The position numbers were made by a program, and so were the translations under genes. From Bacilli bacterium (GTDB lineage: Bacteria > Bacillota_I > Bacilli_A > Izemoplasmatales > Hujiaoplasmataceae): a DNA stretch of 35,754 nt. The DNA lies in the NCBI GenBank assembly GCA_016935815.1, contig JAFGQH010000061.1, positions 1-35,754 of the forward strand. The letters run 5' to 3'. The notes under the pieces are model-generated. The model worked only from the letters and a program-made list of their open reading frames with translations. It was not told where the DNA came from and did not search any database. Below, piece after piece: positions 224-14,661 of this stretch. Each line of letters begins with the position of its first letter. Positions within the stretch are counted from its first letter, which is position 1.

Positions 224-1314
224 AATTAGATAACATATCGCTATATAACTTCCGAAATTATCACAAACAGGAAGTAGAGCTTAACAAGGGTGTCAATTTT
301 TTTGTGGGTCAGAATGGCAGCGGAAAAACCAACCTACTAGAGGCAATTTACTTTCTAGCTTTCGCAAAATCCTATAAAACAAGCGAAAGTAACCTGATAC
401 GATTTCAACACCCTTTTGCGAGAATTCAAGCAAAAGCACAAGATAACCTTAGGTCATATACTTTGAAATTGATTGTATCGGAAAATGGGAAAAGAGCTTT
501 GATCAATAATGTTGAGATTAAGAAACTGAGCGATTATATCGGCAGTATCAATGTCTTGTCATTCTTGCCAGAGGATCTTGCAATCATCAAAGGTTCACCT
601 CGCGACAGAAGATACTACATTGATTTGATCTACGGTCAGATCGACCGACACTATTTGAATGAATTAGGTAACTATAAAGGCTTGTTAAAACAAAGAAACG
701 AACTGTTAAAACGACTGTCGGAATCTCAGAAGCCAGATTTGGTTTTGCTAGATGTCATAACAGAACAATTATCTGCATCCGCTAAACAAATTGTCAAGTT
801 TCGCAAGAGGTTTGTAGAACAAATCAACATGTCATTGAAAACCATGTATCAGTTCTTATCAGATAAAACAGAAACATTTGGGTTTGAGTATCATCCTTCA
901 GCAGAAGGAGATATTGAAAAGATATTGAAGTCCAAATATAAAACAGATCTTATATTGAAAACAACCAATTTAGGACCCCATCGAGATGATTACGATTTCA
1001 TCCTTGATTCCAAACCAGCCAAAGACACCGCATCTCAAGGGGAACAAAGAATCATGGTGTTGGCATTGGTGTTGGCGATTGCAGAGATGATCTACCATAT
1101 TCGAAAAGAAAGACCAATATTTTTGTTGGATGATGTATTTAGTGAGCTCGATTCCAAGAGACAAAATCGTTTGATCAAATATCTAATCAAGTTAAATGCT
1201 CAAACCATCATCACAACAACAAGTTTAGATCATATCGAATCATCGATATGGCACAATTCTAGTATCTATAACGTAACTAACAACAGCATTAGGGAGGAAC
1301 ATTACAATGGATAA
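220..1314 (+). CDS. recF: DNA replication/repair protein RecF
   Basis: RecF is an SMC-like ATPase that loads RecA at gaps with RecO and RecR. The 364-residue length is normal for the family. The N-terminal LxNFRNY segment and Walker A GQNGSGKT (residues 30-37) are intact. The ABC-type signature TASQGEQR lies near residue 270 and Walker [12 protein letters not shown] near 300, followed by the TTTSLDHI segment that normally closes the domain. It overlaps yaaA by four bases at its start and gyrB by eight bases at its end; the gyrB ribosome site AGGGAGGAAC lies inside the last recF codons. This is the classic oriC-proximal dnaA-dnaN-yaaA-recF-gyrB-gyrA context, of which the last four are seen here. 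Confidence 0.97.
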
Positions 1315-3214
1315 TTACAAAAAGTATGATGCCAGTAACATCCAGATCTTAGAGGGCTTAGAAGCCGTTAAAAAAAGACCCGGTATGTATATTGGTACAA
1401 CCAGTTCGAGAGGACTCCATCATTTGGTTTGGGAAATCGTAGATAACGCAGTCGATGAAGCATTGGCTGGTTTTTGCGATGATATTAATGTGGAAATATT
1501 GCCTGGAGACATCATCAAGGTGACCGATAATGGTCGTGGAATCCCAGTTGACATTCATCCGAAATCTGGAAGACCTTCCGTAGAAACAGTTTATACAACC
1601 TTGCATGCAGGGGGTAAGTTTGACCATAATTCGTATAAAGTATCAGGTGGGTTACATGGAGTTGGGGCTTCTGTTGTAAATGCATTGAGTACCTATATGA
1701 CAGTGGAAATTCACAAAGATGGAAAACAATATATGATCGAATTCGATCATGGTTTTTTGAAAAAAGAATTGGAAGTCATCGCCGACACTGACAAATCGGG
1801 AACTATAGTAACCTTCCTTCCGGATCCGGAAATATTCAAAGAATCTCAACATTTCGAAATGGAAATACTAAGAACCAGAATCCAACAATTGGCGTTTTTG
1901 AACAAAGGAATCAAGTTCTCTATCTCCGATCTTAGAGAAGAAGAAAAGATTGTTAGAAAAGATTATTGCTACGAAGGTGGAGTAAAGGAATACGTTGAAT
2001 TTCTTAATGAAGGAAAAGACGTTTTACATACTTCTGTGGCATATTTCGAAGGTCAGGTTGATGACATCATTGTTGAGATTGCAATGCAATACAATAACGG
2101 ATATGCGCAAAGCATTTATCCATTTACCAACAATATCAATAACTCAGAGGGAGGTACTCATGAAGAGGGATTCAAACGTACCTTAACTCTGGTCTTGAAC
2201 AACTACGGAAAAACATCCGGTATTTTTAAGAAAGACGATGCCTTAGCTGGAGAAGATACCAGAGAAGGTTTGGTGGCCATTTGTTCCATCAAGCATCCGG
2301 ACCCTCAATTTGAAGGACAAACGAAATCGAAACTTGGATCCAGTGATGCTAGAGCCGCAGTTTCTCAGATTATGAAAGAAGGATTGGAACGGTACTTGCT
2401 GGAAAATCCAAATGCTGCAAAAACCATTATTGAAAAAGCTTTGATGGCACAACGTGCTAGGATTGCCGCAAAAAAAGCAAGAGAAGCCACCAGAAGAAAA
2501 TCTCCTCTAGACGCACTGGGATTTGCATCCAAACTGGCGGATTGCCGCACTAAAGACGCCACCATTTCCGAAATCTATATCGTCGAAGGTGATTCCGCGG
2601 GAGGATCCGCTAAACAAGGTAGAGATTCTGAATACCAAGCGATTCTTCCATTGCGCGGAAAAGTATTGAACGTTGAAAAAACAAGATTGGACAAGGCGTT
2701 GCAAAACAAAGAAATTCTGTCCATGATTCAAGCATTTGGGGCAGGAATCGACGAAGAGTTTTCATTGGACAACCTTAGATATCATAAGATCATCATCATG
2801 ACCGATGCCGATGTCGACGGAGCGCATATCCGAACATTATTATTGACATTCTTCTTCCGTTATCTTCGTCCTTTGATTGAAAAAGGCTATGTCTTTATTG
2901 CACAGCCACCTCTATATAAAGTTCAATCCGGAAAAACAATTCGTTATGCATATGAAGAAAAAGAATTGGAACAAATCTTGACTGAATTCAATTCGAAACC
3001 AGTCATTCAACGATACAAAGGTCTTGGTGAAATGAACCCCGAACAATTATGGGAAACTACAATGGATCCAGATCAAAGAACACTACTCCAGGTTACATTA
3101 GAAGATGCTATGGAAGCAGATAGAATCTTTTCCATGTTAATGGGAGACGATGTGGCGAGCCGCCGTGAATTCATTCAAGAAAACGCGGAATATGTCAAGA
3201 ATCTAGACGTATAG
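1307..3214 (+). CDS. gyrB: DNA gyrase subunit B
   Basis: GyrB is the ATPase subunit of gyrase, which introduces negative supercoils together with GyrA. It is 635 residues, the short form typical of Gram-positives without the extra insert of E. coli. The GHKL ATPase motifs are complete: [11 protein letters not shown] with catalytic Glu43 and Mg-binding Asn47, [10 protein letters not shown] with Asp74, and [15 protein letters not shown] around 114-128. The TOPRIM metal site has EGDSAGG at Glu427 and DADVDG at 500-505. The GyrA-interaction segment [15 protein letters not shown] starts at 568. The start overlaps recF by eight bases and the stop is embedded in the gyrA ribosome site (TAGGAGG), so both subunits should be made from one message in balanced amounts. 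Confidence 0.98.
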
Positions 3215-3224
3215 GAGGGATATT

Positions 3225-5834
3225 ATGGCAGATAATTTTATCAGTGACAACACAGTAGAAAACGAAAACATCACCAATCGAGTTTTGGAAATCAACATTG
3301 CAAGCGAGATGAAAAGTTCCTTCTTATCCTATGCGATGAGTGTTATTGTAGCAAGAGCATTGCCAGACGTAAGAGATGGCTTGAAACCAGTTCATAGAAG
3401 AATTTTATACGGTATGGAGGAACTAGGAGTTTATCCTGACAAACAGTACAAAAAATCAGCTCGTATCGTCGGAGACGTTATGGGTAAATACCATCCTCAT
3501 GGGGACTCTGCTATTTATGATTCCATGGTGAGAATGGCTCAGGATTTCTCATATCGATATCCACTTGTCAATGGACACGGAAACTTTGGTTCTATTGATG
3601 GTGATCCAGCTGCGGCTATGCGTTATACCGAAGCGAAAATGGAAAAAATCACGCTGGAGATATTGAAAGATCTTAAGAAAAACACGGTTGATTTTATCGA
3701 TAACTACGACGGATCTGAACAAGAGCCAAAAGTCTTACCGGCAAAAATACCGAACCTATTGATTAACGGAACCACCGGTATCGCAGTCGGTATGGCAACC
3801 AACATTCCTCCACATAATCTAGTTGAAGTAATTGACGGATATGTTGCCTATATCAAAAATCCAAGTATTGAATTGGATGAGATGATGGAGTATATAAAAG
3901 GACCAGATTTCCCTACTGGTGGTGTGATTTTAGGCCAAAGCGGAACGGTTTCGGCTTATCAATCCGGAAGAGGAATCATTCGCGTTAAAGCAAAAACCGA
4001 AATCAAAGAAATGGCCAATGGCAAGAAACAAATCATTATCAAAGAAATTCCTTATCAAGTGAATAAGACGACTTTGATTGAGAGAATTGCGGATTTAGCA
4101 AAAGATAAAAAAATTGAAGGAATAACAGATTTAAGAGACGAATCCAATCTCAAAGGTATGAGAGTAGTCTTGGAACTTAGAAAAGACATCAATCCGGAAG
4201 TTCTTTTGAACAACCTTTACAAGAACTCGCAACTTCAAGTTTCTTTTGGCGCAAACATGCTTGCGCTTGTTAACGACAAACCTGAGGTTCTTGGATTGAT
4301 TGATATCATCAAACACTATTATCATCATCAGATTGAAGTATTGTTGCGAAGAACACAATATGACTTAGACAGAGCAATTCAAAGATTGCACCTCTTGGAA
4401 GGCTTCATCATTGCCTTGGACAATATCGAAGAAGTCATCAGAATCATCAGAAATTCCTATGATGATACCGAACAACAACTGATGGATGCATTCCAATTGA
4501 GCGACATTCAAGCAAAAGCGATTCTAGCAATGCAATTGCGCCGTTTGTCTGGTCTTGAAAGAGATAAGATCAACGCCGAAGTAACAGAATTGCATTCTCA
4601 AATAGATGACTTAAATGAAACTTTGGTCAATACCGAAAAACAAAACAACATCTTAATTGATGACGCAATCGAAATAAAAAACAAGTTTGGCGACGCAAGA
4701 CGCACAGAAATCGATTTGTTTGGTGACTATGATATCGAAGATGAAGACTTGATTCCTGTGGAAGATGTCATCATTGCAGTTACCACAAATGGGTATGTCA
4801 AACGCATGAATGTGGATGTCTATCGTTCTCAAAATCGTGGCGGTAGAGGAAAAACGGGAATCAACTTGAATGAAGATGACGTGATTGATTCCATCATTTC
4901 TGCTCAAACACATGATTATTTATTATTCTTTACAACTCTTGGTAGAGTATACAAGATGAAAGGGTATAAGATACCGAAATACGGACGCAACTCAAAAGGG
5001 TTGCCAATCGTTAACCTGTTGAATCTTGTTGAAGGAGAAGAACTCGCTACCGTTATGACATTGAAAGATTTCGAAAATGGATACCTATTCTTCACAACCT
5101 CAAATGGATTGGTAAAACGCACACAAGTATCCGACTTCCAAAATATTCGTGTCAATGGAATCAAAGCGATTAACTTGAGAGATGACGATTATCTACATTC
5201 AGTACGTCTGACTGATGGAACAAGGGACATTATTATTGGTGCTTCCAACGGAAAAGCAATCCGCTTCAAAGAGACAGATGTCAGAAGCATGGGGAGAACA
5301 GCCATGGGCGTTAAGGGTATTGATTTAGCCAATGGAGAACATGTTGTAGGAGTTACTTCTGTTACCGACGAAAGAAACTTGATTTTGGCAATTACCAAAT
5401 TCGGATATGGAAAACGTACAGAAGTGGACGAATATCGATGCCAAAACCGCGGAGGAAAAGGCGTTAAAACAATTAATGTCACCGAAAAGAATGGTGATTT
5501 GGCAAAATTGATTAGTGTGGAAGGAAACGAAGATTTATTAGTCGTATCCGACAAAGGAATCATTATCCGTACGCCAATTAATCAAATCTCAATCACCAAA
5601 AGATCCACTCAAGGCGTCAAAATAATCAACCTTATGGAAGATCATATCGTTTCTACAGTTGCTTTGATCGAAGCGAGTGAAGAAACCGAAGAAATACTAG
5701 ATACAGGTGAAACAAAAGTATTGGTTGAGGAACAACCTTTGTTGGAAGAATCACCGATCGAAGAGATAGAAGAGACAGAAAAAACTTCAGAAGAAGAGCA
5801 AACAGTCGATGATATTTTGAACGATACATTCTAA
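3225..5834 (+). CDS. gyrA: DNA gyrase subunit A
   Basis: GyrA is the DNA-cleaving subunit of gyrase. The active-site tyrosine is Tyr134 in [10 protein letters not shown]. The quinolone-determining region reads [10 protein letters not shown] with Ser95 and Asp99 at the positions of E. coli Ser83 and Asp87, so the usual resistance substitutions are not seen. The C-terminal beta-pinwheel carries the gyrase-specific box QNRGGRG at about 536 and a second box-like QNRGGKG at about 740, which argues for GyrA over ParC. At 869 residues it ends in a Glu-rich acidic tail (about the last 50 residues), which in other GyrA proteins modulates supercoiling. The ribosome site AGGAGG is six bases before ATG and overlaps the gyrB stop. 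A bidirectional terminator follows. Confidence 0.98.
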
Positions 5835-8541: not shown

Positions 8542-9379
8542 TAAAAGAAAATCAATTGTCGATCAAGAAGGATTTACGATTAAGAAGAAATTCAGCCAGA
8601 ATTTTCTTCTTGATGAGAATATCATCCATAAAATTGTCGACAGTACAAATATTGATCAAAATACAGGTGTGATTGAAATCGGACCTGGTCTTGGGGCGTT
8701 GACAAAGCATATCGTAAAACAAGCTAAACAAGTGCTCGTTTATGAGGTCGATAACGACTTGATTCCTTATTTGAATGAGTTCTTTGCTGGACAAGATAAT
8801 TTTACTTTACTCCATCGCGACATCTTAAAAGCCGATATTCAAAATGATATCCATCAATATTTGTCAGATTGTGAGAGAATAGTCGTTATTAGCAACCTCC
8901 CATATCATATCACAACGCCAATCATCATGCGGTTTTTAGAGGATGTCAAAGGCATCCATTCCATGATTTTTATGATGCAATTGGAAGTAGCGAAGCGGAT
9001 CACATCCGAACCGGATACAAAAGATTACAATGCCTTATCTGTTATTATTCAACACCAAACTGAAGCGAAATACTTGTTCAAGGTTCCTAAGAAGGTTTTT
9101 CATCCTCAACCGAATGTTGATTCAGCCGTGATTCGTTTGGTCATAAAACCCGATACAATTGACAAAAACAACCACGGATTTTATGAATTTGTCCACAAAT
9201 GTTTTGCTCAACGCAGAAAAACTTTGATTAACAATCTTTCCAACGGTTATAATAAGTATACAAAGTCGGAATTAGCCGATATATTGGAAGAAAGTGGAAT
9301 CAATCCATTGACCAGAGCGGAAGCTTTGGATTTAGAATCTTTATTACAATTATATGAGGGTCATTTTAATCAACTATAA
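8507..9379 (+). CDS. rsmA: 16S rRNA dimethyladenosine transferase KsgA
   Basis: KsgA/RsmA uses S-adenosylmethionine to dimethylate two adjacent adenines near the 3' end of 16S rRNA and acts as a late checkpoint of 30S assembly. The motifs are [11 protein letters not shown] (residues 29-39), [12 protein letters not shown] (55-66) for the cofactor, and [11 protein letters not shown] from 129 for the target adenine. The length (290) fits the family. The start is uncertain: TTG 8507 has AAAGGA directly abutting it, while TTG 8519 has the same site 12 bases away, and there is no ATG before the conserved QNFL. Either start overlaps the RNase M5 gene by 23-35 bases, so translation is probably coupled. 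Confidence 0.94.
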
Positions 9380-9399
9380 AAAGGAGAATAAAAGCACAA

Positions 9400-10638
9400 A
9401 TGGAAATTAAACGCACTGATAATGATCTTTTTCAAATCATTGAAAGAGAATTGAAACGCCAACAATCACATATCGAGTTAATCGCTTCAGAGAACTTTGT
9501 TTCGAAAGCCGTGCTGGAAGTAGACGGAAGTGTGTTGACAAACAAATATGCTGAAGGCTACCCTGGCAAACGCTATTATGGCGGATGTGAATTTGTCGAT
9601 GAAACAGAAACCCTTGCGATTGAGCGTGTGAAAAAACTATTCAACGTTGCTTATGCCAATGTGCAACCACATTCTGGTTCAACTGCTAATATGGGGGCAT
9701 ATCGAGCGATATTAGAACCAGGAGATAAAGTCTTGGGAATGGCATTGGACCAAGGGGGACACTTGACACATGGGCACCCACTAAGTTTTAGTGGAATCGA
9801 CTATGAGTTCCATCCATATTATGTCAATAAAGAAACTGAGACCATCGATTATGATGAACTAGAACGACTTGCGATAGAAATCAAACCAAAACTGATTGTT
9901 GCTGGGGCGAGCGCATACCCAAGAATTTTGGATTTTAAAAGATTCAAAGAGATTTGTGATAAAGTAGGCTCTCTTTTCATGGTTGATATGGCTCATATTG
10001 CAGGTTTGGTTGCTGCAAATTTACATCCGAATCCTTGCGATTACGCAGATATTGTGACTTCTACAACGCATAAAACACTGCGCGGTCCTAGAGGTGGCAT
10101 CATTTTAACAAACAACGAAGAAATTGCAAAGAATGTAAATCGTGTAATCTTCCCGGGAATCCAAGGCGGGCCATTGATGCACATCATAGCAGCGAAAGCC
10201 GCCGCATTTGGAGAAGCGCTCAAAGATGATTTTCTAATCTATCAAAAACAAGTCGTTTCCAATTCCAAAGCCTTTGCAGCAAAATTTATGGAACTGGGAT
10301 ACCATGTGGTATCTAACGGAACAGATAATCATTTACTATTATTGGATGTATTGTCTAAAGCTGGTTTGACAGGTAAAAAAGCTGAAAACCTTTTGGATCT
10401 AGCTAACATCACATGTAATAAAAACACCATCCCATATGACACAAAGAAACCATTTATCACATCAGGAATTCGTTTGGGAACGCCGGCAATGACCACAAGA
10501 GGGTTTATAGAAACCGATTTTGAAGAAATCGCCGTATTGATCGATATGATTCTTAGCAATCCAGAAGACGAACAAGTACTAAGCGAAGTGAAAGAAAGGG
10601 TCATGGTCTTGACAGATAAGCACCCTTTACCATATTAA
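9400..10638 (+). CDS. glyA: Serine hydroxymethyltransferase
   Basis: GlyA is a pyridoxal-phosphate enzyme that converts serine and tetrahydrofolate to glycine and methylene-tetrahydrofolate, the main one-carbon source. At 412 residues it is full length. Signature segments are [36 protein letters not shown], and [13 protein letters not shown] with the cofactor-binding Lys225. The ribosome site AAGGAG is 13 bases from ATG, longer than elsewhere in the window. It lies 20 bases after ksgA and one base before the ANTAR gene, so the regulator should be made from the same message. No glycine riboswitch or PurR-like operator is visible upstream. Confidence 0.97.
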
Positions 10639-10639
10639 A

Positions 10640-11194
10640 ATGCCAAAGATTTTAGTATGTATCAATGACAACCTACTCAAACTAAGAATTCAAAGATTGT
10701 TATCAGAAAAAGCGTATGATTTTACGATTACAGATCGACCAATCAAGCGCACGGACCTAATTCAGTACGATATGGTATTGATACATTCAACCTATCATCT
10801 TACGGATTTGTTTCATTTCATCGAGAATGTGGTTTTACAACAAGTTACAACAATTGTGTATATTACCACGAATGTAAGTTCGAATCCATTTCGAAGATTC
10901 CACGAACATACAAACTTGATTTTCGTAGACGAACATAAAATGGACATTGAATTGATGTCAGTCATTCAAATGTTTGAAAAATACAACAAACAAGTAAGAA
11001 AGTTGAAAGAAGAGAATCAAAAACTATCCACTCAGTTGGAAGAAAACACTTTAATGAATCGCTGTAAAAGAACGCTAATGGAGCAAGGCCGCTCTGAAGA
11101 TCAAGCACATAAATATATCCTAAAATTTGCAATGGATCATCATATTAGTAAAATAGAAGCATGTAATAGGTTACTCGCAGACAATAGCGAGTAG
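10640..11194 (+). CDS. ANTAR-domain regulator with degenerate receiver
   Basis: A 184-residue protein with a receiver-like half (1-110), a coiled coil from about 118 (KLKEENQKLSTQLEEN) and a C-terminal ANTAR helix bundle (about 130-180: CKRTLMEQGRSEDQAHKYI, then KFAMDHH). ANTAR domains bind paired RNA hairpins with six-base loops and prevent termination. The receiver half lacks the phosphate-accepting aspartate: the position after strand 3 reads VLIHSTYHL where LLDIxMP is expected, so control is probably not by a histidine kinase; a pseudoreceiver as in AmiR is the model. It follows glyA by one base and lies directly before glnA, as ANTAR genes do near glnA in some Clostridia. Its last codons form a long hairpin. 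Confidence 0.82.
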   Translation: MPKILVCINDNLLKLRIQRLLSEKAYDFTITDRPIKRTDLIQYDMVLIHSTYHLTDLFHFIENVVLQQVTTIVYITTNVSSNPFRRFHEHTNLIFVDEHKMDIELMSVIQMFEKYNKQVRKLKEENQKLSTQLEENTLMNRCKRTLMEQGRSEDQAHKYILKFAMDHHISKIEACNRLLADNSE

Positions 11195-11209
11195 CCTATT
11201 GATTTTTTT
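11165..11209 (+). terminator. Long terminator overlapping the end of the ANTAR gene
   Basis: Left arm 11165-11178 (AATAGGTTACTCGC) pairs with right arm 11187-11200 (GCGAGTAGCCTATT): 14 pairs, one a G-T wobble, with an 8-base loop, followed by a T-run to 11209. The arms include the last codons and the TAG stop of the ANTAR gene. It separates the glyA operon from glnA. Confidence 0.88.
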
Positions 11210-11227
11210 ATAGATAATAGATATAAT
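11199..11227 (+). promoter_or_regulatory. Promoter of glnA
   Basis: TTGATT at 11199-11204, a 17-base spacer and TATAAT at 11222-11227, with the -35 inside the terminator tail. Transcription would start near 11234, giving a leader of about 90 bases. No clear GlnR box (TGTnA-n7-TnACA) is seen. Confidence 0.65.
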
Positions 11228-11231
11228 TACC

Positions 11232-11251
11232 TGAAAGCAATGGGGCTTACA
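11232..11251 (+). promoter_or_regulatory. Hexaloop hairpin at the start of the glnA leader, candidate ANTAR site
   Basis: AAGC (11235-11238) pairs with GCTT (11245-11248) around the six-base loop AATGGG, with TG/CA pairs outside one A-A mismatch. The loop has A at position 1 and G at position 4, the pattern of ANTAR-bound loops. A second, weaker candidate follows at 11257-11268 (ATG, loop AAAGGT, TAT). No terminator follows in the leader, so the function is unproven. Confidence 0.35.
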
Positions 11252-11321
11252 ATAAAATGAAAGGTTATAATTACGCAAAAGATGCATAGTATTGGTTCTG
11301 CGGATTATGAGAAAAAGAAAA

Positions 11322-12662
11322 ATGAAGAAATATACAAAAAGCGATATCCTTAAGATCGCAAAAGAGGAGAATGTCAGATATATCCGTTTGATGTTCACGG
11401 ACATTATGGGGACAATCAAAAGCGTTGAAATTCCCGTGACCCGCCTCGAAACTGCTTTGGATGGCAGAGTGATGTTTGACGGATCTTCCATAGAAGGTTT
11501 CGTTAGAATCATGGAAGCGGATATGTATTTAAGACCGGACTATGACACGTGGTTGATTCTAAGTTGGGAAGAAACCAGTTATGGTAAAGTCGCAAGATTG
11601 ATCTGTGATGTTTATACCCCACAAGGGAATCCTTCACCAGCAGACCCAAGGTCAAATCTAAAACGTGTCGCTAAAAAAATGGAAAAACTTGGTTTTTCCA
11701 CACTCAACATTGGCTTCGAACCTGAATTCTTCCTATTTAAGTTGGATGAAAACGGTGAAATCACAATGGATGTCAAAGACAATGGGGGGTATTTCGATCT
11801 CTCTCCAATTGACGGAGCAGGAGATTGTAGAAGAGACATCGTTTTGGAATTGGAAAGAATTGGATTTACTATGGAAGCAAGTCACCACGAAGTTGCACCT
11901 GGCCAAAATGAAATCAATTTCGAGTTTTCCAATATTATTGAAGCGGTTGACAATGTTCAAACATTCAAACTAGTGGTTAAGAACATTGCAAGAAGACATG
12001 GATTGCATGCGACATTCATGCCAAAACCAATTGCCAACATCAATGGTTCTGGTATGCATACGAACTGTTCATTGTCTGATTTGGAAGGAAATAATGCATT
12101 TGATGACCCAACTGATCCGCAAGGATTAAGTCATGTGTGCCGTCAATGGTTAACTGGTATATTAACTCATTCGAGATCTTTCTGCGCAATCACGAATCCG
12201 ACTGTAAACTCATATAAAAGACTAGTCCCAGGATATGAAGCACCGTGCTATGTTTCTTGGTCCGAACACAATCGATCTGTAATGGTTCGAATTCCCGCAA
12301 CAAGAGGAAGAACAACGAGAACGGAGATTCGTAGCGTTGACGTATCTGCCAATCCATATTTGGCTATCTCGGTCATTTTGGCTGCCGGACTTGACGGAAT
12401 CGAAAGAGATCTTCCATTGATCTCTTCGATCAATGAGAATCTGTTCGAACTTACGCAACAAGAAAGAACCGCTTTGGGAGTCAGCAGTTTACCTGACAAC
12501 CTAAAAGAAGCAATTGATGTATTGAAAGAATCGGAATTAATGAAAGAAGCACTTGGAGAGCATATCTTCAATAAGTTTATTGAATTGAAAAGCAAAGAGT
12601 GGGACGCATTCCGAACTGCAGTAACGGAGTGGGAAATCAACCGCTATATAAAATTGATATAG
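11322..12662 (+). CDS. glnA: Glutamine synthetase, type I-alpha
   Basis: GlnA makes glutamine from glutamate, ammonia and ATP as a dodecamer. At 446 residues it has [12 protein letters not shown] with Arg62, the feedback-inhibition residue of the Gram-positive I-alpha class, then [14 protein letters not shown] for ATP/glutamate, NSYKRLVPG and [12 protein letters not shown]. The region where type I-beta enzymes carry the adenylylated tyrosine reads [12 protein letters not shown], with Phe, so control should be by feedback and partner proteins instead of adenylylation. The start is placed at ATG 11322 by similarity to MAKYTREDI of B. subtilis; TTG 11292 or ATG 11307 would add a basic stub. The ribosome site is only a purine run. 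Its neighbour is the ANTAR regulator; no glnR is in the window. Confidence 0.96.
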
Positions 12663-12700
12663 AAAAAATCCCGGAGTATATTCTCCGGGATTATTTTTTT
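12663..12700. terminator. Bidirectional terminator between glnA and hslO
   Basis: AATCCCGGAG (12667-12676) pairs with CTCCGGGATT (12683-12692) around a six-base loop, with A-run and T-run on the two sides. It overlaps the hslO stop codon. Confidence 0.92.
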
Positions 12701-13563
12701 GCTAAATCAACTAAGTCTAAGATTTCTTGGATGGAAAATTCATAATGTTTCTTGCAAAATTGGCAAGTAATTTGAACGGGATGACCTTCATTCGACAACT
12801 GATCCAACTCTTTTTGTCCGAGAGATATCAAGCCTTTTTCAAATCGATTTCTTGAACAATCACAACGATATACGAGTGGCATTTCTTCGATAAACTCATG
12901 ATCACCTAGTGTAATCAATTGAATGATATCTTCTGGTTTTAATCCTTCGTTGATTAATTCGGATATTGGTTTCATTTCTTGAATATTGATTTCAATCTTG
13001 TTAATTGTTTCTTCTGTTGCGCCAGGCATTAACTGGAGTATAAACCCACCGCTGGCAAAGACTTCATTGTTTTCGTTTACGAGAACACCTAAACCTACGG
13101 ATGATGGAATTTGTTCGCTAGCAGCAAAATAATATGTAAAATCGTCTGCAATTTCTCCCGTTTGTAATTTTGCACTTGATGTGAAAGTATCACGGATCTT
13201 AATATCTTTGGTTACATGAATAAAACCATTAGTTCCGACAACCATTCCAACGGCTAACTTATCTTTTTGAGAGATATGCACTTCTGGATTTTCAATGGTA
13301 CCCTTGATGGTTCCATGGGCATCCACAACGGTTACCATTTCACCAATTGGGCCACCACCATCAATTCTAATTGTAAGCATTTGATCTTCTTTGTACATAG
13401 CACCCATAATTAATGATGCAGTCAGTAGCCGTCCGAAGGCAGCACTCGCTGCAGGCCATGTTCCGTGGATTTGTCTTGCTTCTTCCACGAGATTTGTGGT
13501 GGATGCTGCATATATTCTTACTGTTCCATTAAAGGCATATGCCTTAATAAGATAATCATTCAT
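12691..13563 (-). CDS. hslO: Redox-regulated chaperone Hsp33
   Basis: Hsp33 is a cytoplasmic holdase chaperone activated when oxidants and heat release zinc from four cysteines. The 290-residue length is normal. The zinc site is intact: CDC at Cys234/Cys236 and CQFC at Cys267/Cys270. The N-terminal domain shows the conserved GTWPAASAAFGRLLTAS stretch and IDGGGPIGEM. The start is ATG 13563 with AGGAG eight bases upstream. It is a single-gene unit, divergent from dusB and convergent with glnA, using a shared terminator. Its promoter is an extended -10 (13584-13592) placed only seven bases from the ribosome site. Confidence 0.96.
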   Translation of the reverse strand: MNDYLIKAYAFNGTVRIYAASTTNLVEEARQIHGTWPAASAAFGRLLTASLIMGAMYKEDQMLTIRIDGGGPIGEMVTVVDAHGTIKGTIENPEVHISQKDKLAVGMVVGTNGFIHVTKDIKIRDTFTSSAKLQTGEIADDFTYYFAASEQIPSSVGLGVLVNENNEVFASGGFILQLMPGATEETINKIEINIQEMKPISELINEGLKPEDIIQLITLGDHEFIEEMPLVYRCDCSRNRFEKGLISLGQKELDQLSNEGHPVQITCQFCKKHYEFSIQEILDLVDLAKK

Positions 13564-13583
13564 TCTATCAACTCCTGGATGGT

Positions 13584-13592
13584 ATTATAACA
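13584..13592 (-). promoter_or_regulatory. Extended -10 promoter of hslO
   Basis: The minus strand reads TGTTATAAT. The -35 region (near 13607-13612) is poor. The start of transcription would fall just before AGGAG. Confidence 0.6.
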
Positions 13593-13637
13593 CGTTGTAT
13601 AGATTTCTATTTGTTTTGTTTTTTGTTACAATTATTA

Positions 13638-13643
13638 TATAAT
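13638..13643 (+). promoter_or_regulatory. -10 box of dusB
   Basis: Perfect TATAAT in the 111-base hslO-dusB gap, preceded by T-rich sequence with no clear -35 at the right distance. It lies about 20 bases before AAGGAG. Confidence 0.5.
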
Positions 13644-13674
13644 ATTATCTGACTCATTGGAAAGGAGAATGCTT

Positions 13675-14661
13675 ATGAAATGGAAAATTGGCAATCTCGA
13701 AATTGAAAATCAAGTCGTCGTTGCTCCGATGGCGGGAGTTACAAACATAGCATTCAGATCGATTCTAAAAGAGTTTGGTGCGGGTTTGATTTTTACTGAG
13801 ATGATATCAGATAAAGGTTTGCTTTATGAAAACAATAGAACTCAGGATATGACTGAGATAGCAGAATTTGAACAGCCGATAGGATTGCAGCTATTTGGTA
13901 GCGAAGTGGAAACCATGACGAAAGCGGCTATCTATATCGATAGAAATACTTCGGCTCAAATCATTGACATCAATATGGGTTGTCCGGTACAAAAAGTTGT
14001 TAAAGCCGGAGCCGGAAGCAAACTGATGACAACACCTGATTTAGCCTTTAAAATCGTCAAAAATATTGTTGATCACGTATCAAAACCAGTTACTGTAAAA
14101 ATACGAAGTGGTTGGGATCATAAAAACATCAATGCAATCGAGTTTGCAAAATCAATGGAAATGGCTGGAGTAAGCGCTATTACAGTGCACGGAAGAACAC
14201 GGAGTGATATGTATTCTGGAAAGGCAAATTGGGACATAATCAAGCAAATTAAGCGAAATGTCACCATTCCAGTCATAGGGAACGGAGATATTACTACTCC
14301 TGAGGACGCGAAAAACATGATAGATTACACTGGTTGTGATGCGATTATGGTGGGTAGAGGATTGCTTGGAAACCCATTTTTGATACAACAAATCAGAGAT
14401 TACTTAGATACTGGAAACTACCGCAAGAATTTCTCCTTGTTAGAAAGAAAAAATGCGATTTTTTCTCATCTTTTGAAATTGATGGAATTGAAAGGAAATC
14501 ATGTTGCAACCCTAGAAATGCGTAATCATGGCGCTTGGTACATAAAAGGACTACCTGGATCAAGTAAAATCAAACCATTGATTGTTAACGCGAAAGATCC
14601 AGAAGATTTTCGTAAAATTATCTTAGATTACTTTAAAAAATTAGAACAAAGGCAGGAATAA
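13675..14661 (+). CDS. dusB: tRNA-dihydrouridine synthase DusB
   Basis: An FMN enzyme that reduces uridines in tRNA to dihydrouridine. The 328-residue protein has the TIM-barrel start VVVAPMAGVTNIAFR (about 15-29), the catalytic-cysteine loop INMGCPVQKV (Cys103), ITVHGRTR, the FMN phosphate loops VIGNGDITTPEDA and IMVGRGLLGNPF, and the small C-terminal helical domain with HGAWYIKGLPG. The start at ATG 13675 has AAGGAG seven bases upstream; the TTG at 13657 lies before the ribosome site and is rejected. In many Bacillota dusB lies near lysS or hslO; here it is divergent from hslO and convergent with hflX. Confidence 0.95.
   Translation: MKWKIGNLEIENQVVVAPMAGVTNIAFRSILKEFGAGLIFTEMISDKGLLYENNRTQDMTEIAEFEQPIGLQLFGSEVETMTKAAIYIDRNTSAQIIDINMGCPVQKVVKAGAGSKLMTTPDLAFKIVKNIVDHVSKPVTVKIRSGWDHKNINAIEFAKSMEMAGVSAITVHGRTRSDMYSGKANWDIIKQIKRNVTIPVIGNGDITTPEDAKNMIDYTGCDAIMVGRGLLGNPFLIQQIRDYLDTGNYRKNFSLLERKNAIFSHLLKLMELKGNHVATLEMRNHGAWYIKGLPGSSKIKPLIVNAKDPEDFRKIILDYFKKLEQRQE

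Follow-up and report, generated by a model that had tools for sequence, protein, structure and literature searches.

An ANTAR regulator gene and a candidate hairpin-bridged ribosome-binding site upstream of glnA in a little-known relative of Bacillus

How is glutamine synthesis controlled when a gene for an ANTAR protein without the phosphorylatable aspartate lies directly upstream of glnA? The window analysed here is a whole contig of 35,754 nucleotides (G000:C9) from a genome of 1.41 Mb in 79 contigs that is 79.94% complete. The host is a bacterium of a little-known branch akin to Bacillus and the mycoplasmas. An initial annotation, made from the letters of the DNA, placed a pseudoreceiver-ANTAR regulator between glyA and glnA and proposed that it acts on glnA at the RNA level. 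The features of the locus are as follows.

9400..10638, + strand: glyA (serine hydroxymethyltransferase, profile match PF00464), upstream neighbour of the ANTAR gene
10640..11194, + strand: ANTAR regulator gene, 184 aa (open reading frame and PF03861 match)
10784..10786, + strand: codon of His49, which stands where strand 3 of a receiver would end in the phosphorylatable Asp (from the translation)
11164..11209, + strand: intrinsic-terminator-like hairpin and T run overlapping the 3' end of the ANTAR gene (stem of 15 pairs, then ATTTTTTTAT)
11199..11227, + strand: sigma-70-type promoter of glnA, TTGATT - 17 - TATAAT (10 of 12 consensus matches)
11232..11251, + strand: P1, hairpin with an ANTAR-type hexaloop with A1 and G4 (core AAGC[AATGGG]GCTT at 11235-11248)
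11259..11264, + strand: GAAAGG, candidate for a Shine-Dalgarno sequence displaced from the AUG (complement of CCTTTC in the 16S tail)
11265..11310, + strand: P2, 46-nt hairpin between GAAAGG and AUG, with a conserved apex
11322..12662, + strand: glnA, type I glutamine synthetase, 446 aa (profile match TIGR00653; ATG at 11322)

The ANTAR reading frame begins 1 nt past the glyA stop codon and has no Shine-Dalgarno sequence of its own. The terminator-like hairpin at its 3' end precedes the glnA promoter and lies outside the glnA leader; because the ANTAR gene ends in this hairpin, glnA probably has a separate transcript. The order glyA-ANTAR-glnA is conserved across loci L002-L031, one locus per genome (the gene-order search missed the ANTAR genes of L028 and L031 because of their divergence, and separate searches identified them), and given this conservation the arrangement is more than chance.

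The domain assignment of the initial annotation was supported by the Pfam ANTAR profile PF03861, which matched residues 128-178 above its curated cut-off (31.9 versus 27.3 bits, E 1.1e-7) and had its sole match in the genome (79.94% complete) in this protein. No receiver family was reported for the protein by the Pfam search. The AlphaFold model, for which three sequences served as input (window, L145 and L146), had a mean pLDDT of 89.0 and a pTM of 0.67, and exhibited the expected alternation of strands (residues 3-7, 27-31, 45-49, 71-76 and 93-97) and helices of a receiver-type fold, together with two ANTAR helices. In this model the pseudoreceiver covers residues 1 to about 97, a helix residues 98-148 and the ANTAR helices residues 153-182. 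The top PDB matches in Foldseek were RNA-bound EutV (E 2.2e-8), EutV, Rv1626 and AmiR, and structural alignment to EutV gave a Z of 13.2 over 182 residues with an rmsd of 6.2. The predicted fold thus shares with EutV and AmiR a receiver-like domain, a coiled-coil helix and the ANTAR helices.

His49 occupies the place of EutV Asp54 (DMVLIHS in the window protein aligned to DLVLMD in EutV) and is invariant in all 17 proteins of the window's family f1, so that the loss of the phosphorylatable aspartate, also pointed out by the initial annotation, holds for the whole family. In the sister family f3 the position is taken by Ser, Thr or similar residues and never by Asp, as read from the alignment, and family f10 likewise has His (L179, L182). 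Since f3 is without Asp and f10 also carries His, the loss looks older than f1. Family f14, of the same class, retains Asp (VVIVDE, VVIIDE). Judged from its sequence, the f1 regulator is predicted to be phosphorylation-independent. Three of the residues with which EutV contacts RNA are retained (Lys149 as K143, Glu160 as E153 and Met172 as M165) and invariant in all 34 aligned proteins. EutV Tyr164, reported to stack on G4 of the hexaloop in the structure paper (PMC8934654), is replaced by His157, also invariant in the 34 proteins, and EutV Arg168 and Asn173 by Leu161 and Asp166. This partial conservation of the EutV contacts suggests that the window protein may bind RNA, which ANTAR proteins do as dimers.

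The candidate RNA target is P1, located just 3' of the promoter-like TTGATT-17-TATAAT. Under a strict rule (A-N-N-G hexaloop on a stem of at least four pairs, at least two of them GC, in the 170 nt before glnA) a P1-type hexaloop was found in 31 of 35 leaders with an ANTAR gene versus 1 of 29 without (Fisher p 1.7e-12, leaders counted without correction for relatedness), and the background rate was 15 in 420 tiles from both strands of the window. This association is consistent with the RNA-level control of glnA put forward in the initial annotation. The 35 leaders exclude genome G036, where the ANTAR gene lies downstream of a divergent glnA, and the 29 are drawn from 33 glnA genomes without ANTAR, G032, G044, G067 and G087 being left out for a fragmentary or divergent glnA. 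The one matching leader without an ANTAR gene, L111, has its hairpin at -167, on the distal edge of the scanned stretch. Among the four misses, L016 and L017 have a stem mismatch, the loop of L031 begins with G, and the element of L033 lies further upstream, where it was found separately.

Taken alone, the window P1 is weak (-3.6 kcal/mol) and the window P2 has a z of -1.6, and an Rfam scan of positions 9300-13700 gave nothing credible (best E 0.034, far under the gathering score). The complete f1 leader was also described by a covariance model (R1), trained on the 17 f1 genomes with ANTAR, which gave a single strong match in each of these training genomes, at glnA (63-86 bits). No match above 24.6 bits was obtained in any of the 17 ANTAR-less f1 genomes, nor elsewhere across the 34 genomes. 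When R1 was run on 296 genomes of the class, no genome outside f1 scored above 31.1 bits, and two from outside f1 reached 31.1 and 29.5 bits. The 29.5-bit match is the glnA leader of G288 (L177), with a P1 on an 8-pair stem and a terminator-like hairpin; the ANTAR gene of that genome (L188) is on a different contig, and a trans-acting version is possible.

The 17 f1 leaders share one order: P1, 4-11 nt of A-rich linker, GAAAGG or a close variant of it, P2 and AUG. The spacing is held in all of them, with 0-1 nt between GAAAGG and P2, 45-47 nt for P2 itself and 10-14 nt from P2 to AUG. RNAalifold predicted P1 and P2, and 15 of the 20 pairs are changed on both sides in some sequence. In the P1/P2 alignment 87.8% of the cells are paired; shuffled controls give 71.1% and slid ones 34-49%. 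Changes on both sides amount to 74 cells versus 26.1 in shuffles. Invariant columns lie in the P1 loop and in GAAAGG; P2 adds its closing C-G, an A and, three positions after that A, a bulged G. At its apex P2 has a short loop and a bulge, and the invariant A-N-N-G there matches the A1/G4 spacing; a canonical second hexaloop is not formed in P2 of the f1 leaders, L012 alone giving one. Terminator matches, all of them loose, occur in 3 of the 17 f1 leaders and not in the window leader, and P2 has no trailing T run.

Two alternative pairings in the f1 leaders were examined by co-variation and rejected: one between the 5' arm and loop of P1 and the 3' arm of P2 (692 of 3000 permutations as good), the other between the 3' arm of P1 and GAAAGG (2638 of 3000). 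The positive controls, the P1 stem and the P2 base, gave 0 of 3000. No alternative pairing for a pure RNA switch was thus found by co-variation in these leaders.

The f1 leaders also stand out in their ribosome-binding sites. The median anti-Shine-Dalgarno duplex near the AUG is -3.2 kcal/mol in f1 (n=17) versus -10.2 in f3 (n=17; p 1.4e-6) and -8.4 in ANTAR-less leaders (n=29; p 6.9e-7). Duplexes of -4 or better were present in 5/17, 17/17 and 27/29 leaders, respectively; 12 of the 17 f1 leaders are without a proper Shine-Dalgarno sequence near the AUG, and five have a moderate purine match of -5.0 to -6.2. The host itself uses Shine-Dalgarno sites, since 14 of 20 tested gene starts in the window reach -5 or better. 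GAAAGG would form a duplex of about -7.4 to -8.2 (in L003 and L010 a different stretch scored best). The 16S 3' end is CCTCCTTTCT in four f1 genomes; the window's own genome (80% complete) yielded no such end. With P2 as a bridge, the spacing between GAAAGG and AUG would fall from about 57 nt to an effective 10-14 nt in all 17 f1 leaders, and we read the f1 leader as a candidate hairpin-bridged, or split, ribosome-binding site for which the hairpin would be needed. Phage T4 offers a parallel: in gene 25 a hairpin is reported to shorten the spacing from 27 to 11 nt, and in genes 25 and 38, as in the f1 leader, a hairpin between Shine-Dalgarno and AUG restores the spacing, according to PMC3014915. 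In contrast to T4, the f1 hairpin is longer (45-47 nt), the gene is cellular, and the putative site of an RNA-binding protein lies just upstream.

The leaders of related families are built differently. That of the sister family f3 consists of P1, an intrinsic terminator and then a strong Shine-Dalgarno sequence; P1 and terminator were found in 17/17 by scan, although in L031 the reported stretch differs from the evident terminator. That of f14 has two hexaloops, the second overlapping a terminator, which is the textbook layout. As f3 would work by attenuation, a change of output must be assumed for f1, which counts against the split-site reading. We see an even chance that the lineage retained the ANTAR protein and P1 and swapped the terminator of an ancestral attenuator for the split-site hairpin, leaving translational control through a single canonical hexaloop. 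If true, this would be a cellular split ribosome-binding site governed by an RNA-binding protein. What the leader comparisons themselves back is P1, its tie to ANTAR, P2, the loss of the terminator and the loss of the usual Shine-Dalgarno sequence.

Taken together, we consider it fairly probable that a dedicated ANTAR regulator binds P1 and sets glnA translation at a split site. The regulator would be independent of phosphorylation, dedicated to the adjacent glnA and translated together with glyA. The glnA mRNA would start at its own promoter and the regulator would bind the P1 hexaloop at the mRNA 5' end, with GAAAGG, a few nucleotides 3' of P1 and far from the AUG, brought to a workable distance by P2. 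We infer binding of the protein to P1, the use of GAAAGG by the ribosome and the direction of control; that the regulator would set glnA translation is suggested because P1 lies just upstream of the P2-bridged GAAAGG. The bound protein might repress by crowding the ribosome site, which we hold to be about as probable as not and which is favoured by the geometry, with GAAAGG between P1 and P2, and by a mycobacterial precedent cited in PMC8164766. Activation of glnA translation, a possibility to be held more tentatively, is favoured by comparison with f3, whose ANTAR protein would turn glnA on. Third in rank, after these two, comes an influence on the stability of the mRNA. The pseudoreceiver would most likely respond to a partner protein, for example glutamine synthetase, or to a ligand, much as AmiR responds to AmiC.

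Other explanations of the locus have to be weighed against regulator-controlled translation at the split site. Ordinary antitermination, where the protein stabilises P1 and P2 and thereby blocks a terminator as in EutV and f3, would draw on the same P1 as in f3, which has P1 plus terminator throughout (17/17 by scan, the L031 stretch not being the evident terminator), and on other families of the class with dual hexaloops or P1 plus terminator. However, P2 of f1 is without a T run and only 3/17 leaders give loose terminator matches; what is fixed instead is the length of P2 and its distances to GAAAGG and AUG, and we regard antitermination as unlikely. Slightly more room is left, though it too is rather unlikely, for P1 being the ANTAR site and P2 an independent element, either a protein- or ligand-binding structure or a plain bridge, with ANTAR affecting mRNA stability at the 5' end. 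The apex of P2 conserves positions beyond the needs of a bridge (the invariant C, G, A and bulged G), and the promoter position predicts P1 at the very 5' end of the mRNA, but within f1 P1 and P2 co-occur, and only alongside the ANTAR gene.

Two further alternatives remain. Phosphorylation by a kinase, as in two-component response regulators, would agree with the receiver-like fold and with the Asp retained by the f14 relatives, but His49 in 17/17 f1 members and the missing Asp in f3 make it scarcely credible. Coupling of glycine or one-carbon status to nitrogen assimilation, suggested by the initial annotation, appears quite improbable and was not supported, even if the glyA-ANTAR-glnA order is conserved and one genome has glyA-ANTAR without glnA (L187). 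glyA is still upstream of glnA in 11 of the 29 ANTAR-less loci, the hexaloop precedes glyA in 2 of 28 leaders versus 15 of 420 background tiles and is thus not in excess, and in f14 and f10 loci ANTAR-glnA occurs with glyA absent from the examined stretch.

The initial annotation had also contrasted ANTAR control with control by GlnR. GlnR and TnrA are MerR-type regulators with the box TGTNA-N7-TNACA. In line with its expectation, no GlnR-type protein was seen, with no PF13411 match above the cut-off in the window's genome (80% complete), and no GlnR box within one mismatch is present in the glnA leader; in the window as a whole one-mismatch boxes number 17 versus 25 expected. A PF13411 match was found in 1 of 5 genomes of the genus. 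No canonical PII protein was seen in the window's genome (80% complete). The one weak PII-like match in this genome (27.9 bits, L099:3350-3990) was considered as GlnK and rejected, since a cation/proton-antiporter-like frame, named by eye, follows it and not an ammonium transporter; that protein is perhaps a regulator of the adjoining antiporter-like transporter. With neither GlnR nor canonical PII seen in a genome that is 80% complete, the f1 arrangement would give a simple nitrogen-assimilation switch.

The view of the initial annotation that this is a different circuit was not sustained. NitR of Clostridium saccharobutylicum is an ANTAR regulator of the glutamine synthetase and glutamate synthase genes, reported as an antiterminator in the review PMC6316151, and Ramesh 2012 counts the leaders of glutamine synthetase genes among the targets of ANTAR proteins (PMC3369931; PMC3369936). 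The ANTAR-glnA pairing is not new, because RNA-level ANTAR control of glnA is already known from these reports, and pseudo-receivers in ANTAR proteins are already known from AmiR. Translational ANTAR control and single-hexaloop sites as general ideas are published as well: Ramesh 2012 proposed translational control where leaders lack terminators (PMC3369931), the EutV structure paper describes one hexaloop as the minimal ANTAR site and proposes that single hexaloops may suffice (PMC8934654), and in actinobacteria ANTAR targets are reported to adjoin ribosome-binding sites, with translational control (PMC8164766). The changed output, from terminator to split site, is undescribed as far as searches of the open-access literature show, and no paper on ANTAR control in the host lineage was found there.

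The known systems differ from the window in several respects. NitR is like the window protein an ANTAR protein taken to control glnA at the RNA level, but it is described as an antiterminator, whereas the window glnA leader has no terminator. EutV of Enterococcus faecalis is the best structural match, recognises a hexaloop of the kind seen in P1 (A1, G4) and shares Lys149, Glu160 and Met172, but has the phosphorylated Asp54, dual hexaloops and a terminator; the window has His49 instead of the Asp and a single canonical hexaloop, and lacks the terminator. AmiR of Pseudomonas aeruginosa is also a pseudo-receiver ANTAR protein, with His at the place of EutV Tyr164 in the alignment; it works with AmiC and a terminator, whereas no AmiC-like gene adjoins the window ANTAR gene. 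The actinobacterial targets resemble the window in lying beside a ribosome-binding site, but there the site overlaps the hexaloop stems (PMC8164766), and in the window the candidate site lies between two hairpins, one of which separates it from the AUG. ANTAR leaders of Bacillota and proteobacteria have been described chiefly as transcription attenuators, and f1 would provide a clean natural case of translational control with a single hexaloop, with the f3 attenuator for comparison.

The ANTAR protein is present in 36 of 101 relatives. Profile matches occur in 36 of the 90 genomes of the order examined, including a weak one in G064 (E 1.2e-4) and one with a different gene order in G036, and in f1 the gene is found in 17 of 34 genomes. 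In an even draw across the class 37 of 296 genomes match at E 1e-10 or better, and outside the order ANTAR directly precedes glnA in 8 of 13 loci examined (L179-L186, out of L179-L191). In L187 (positions 229-3359) glyA-ANTAR is followed by an rnfC-like gene, named by eye, in place of glnA, and the ANTAR protein reads IHTSY where the window protein reads IHSTY.

Among leaders without ANTAR, cre-like operator cores (AACGTTT/AAACGTT) precede glnA in 11/29 versus 0/35 with ANTAR (L074-L076, L102-L105, L111-L114), as if a DNA-binding regulator stood in for the ANTAR circuit. With a less strict cre pattern the two groups were not separated (17/29 versus 15/35). L084 and L087, both without ANTAR and with glyA directly before glnA, share the leader ATTCGGA...ATGACC...CCGTTAAA.GTCATGGCATC, 100 nt before glnA and without a hexaloop. 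In G036 (L101:578-8303) a row of gltB, gltD, a glnA-like gene and ANTAR forms a nitrogen-assimilation cluster that closes with the ANTAR gene (gltB and gltD named by eye), and its ANTAR protein has Asn near the place of the phosphorylatable Asp.
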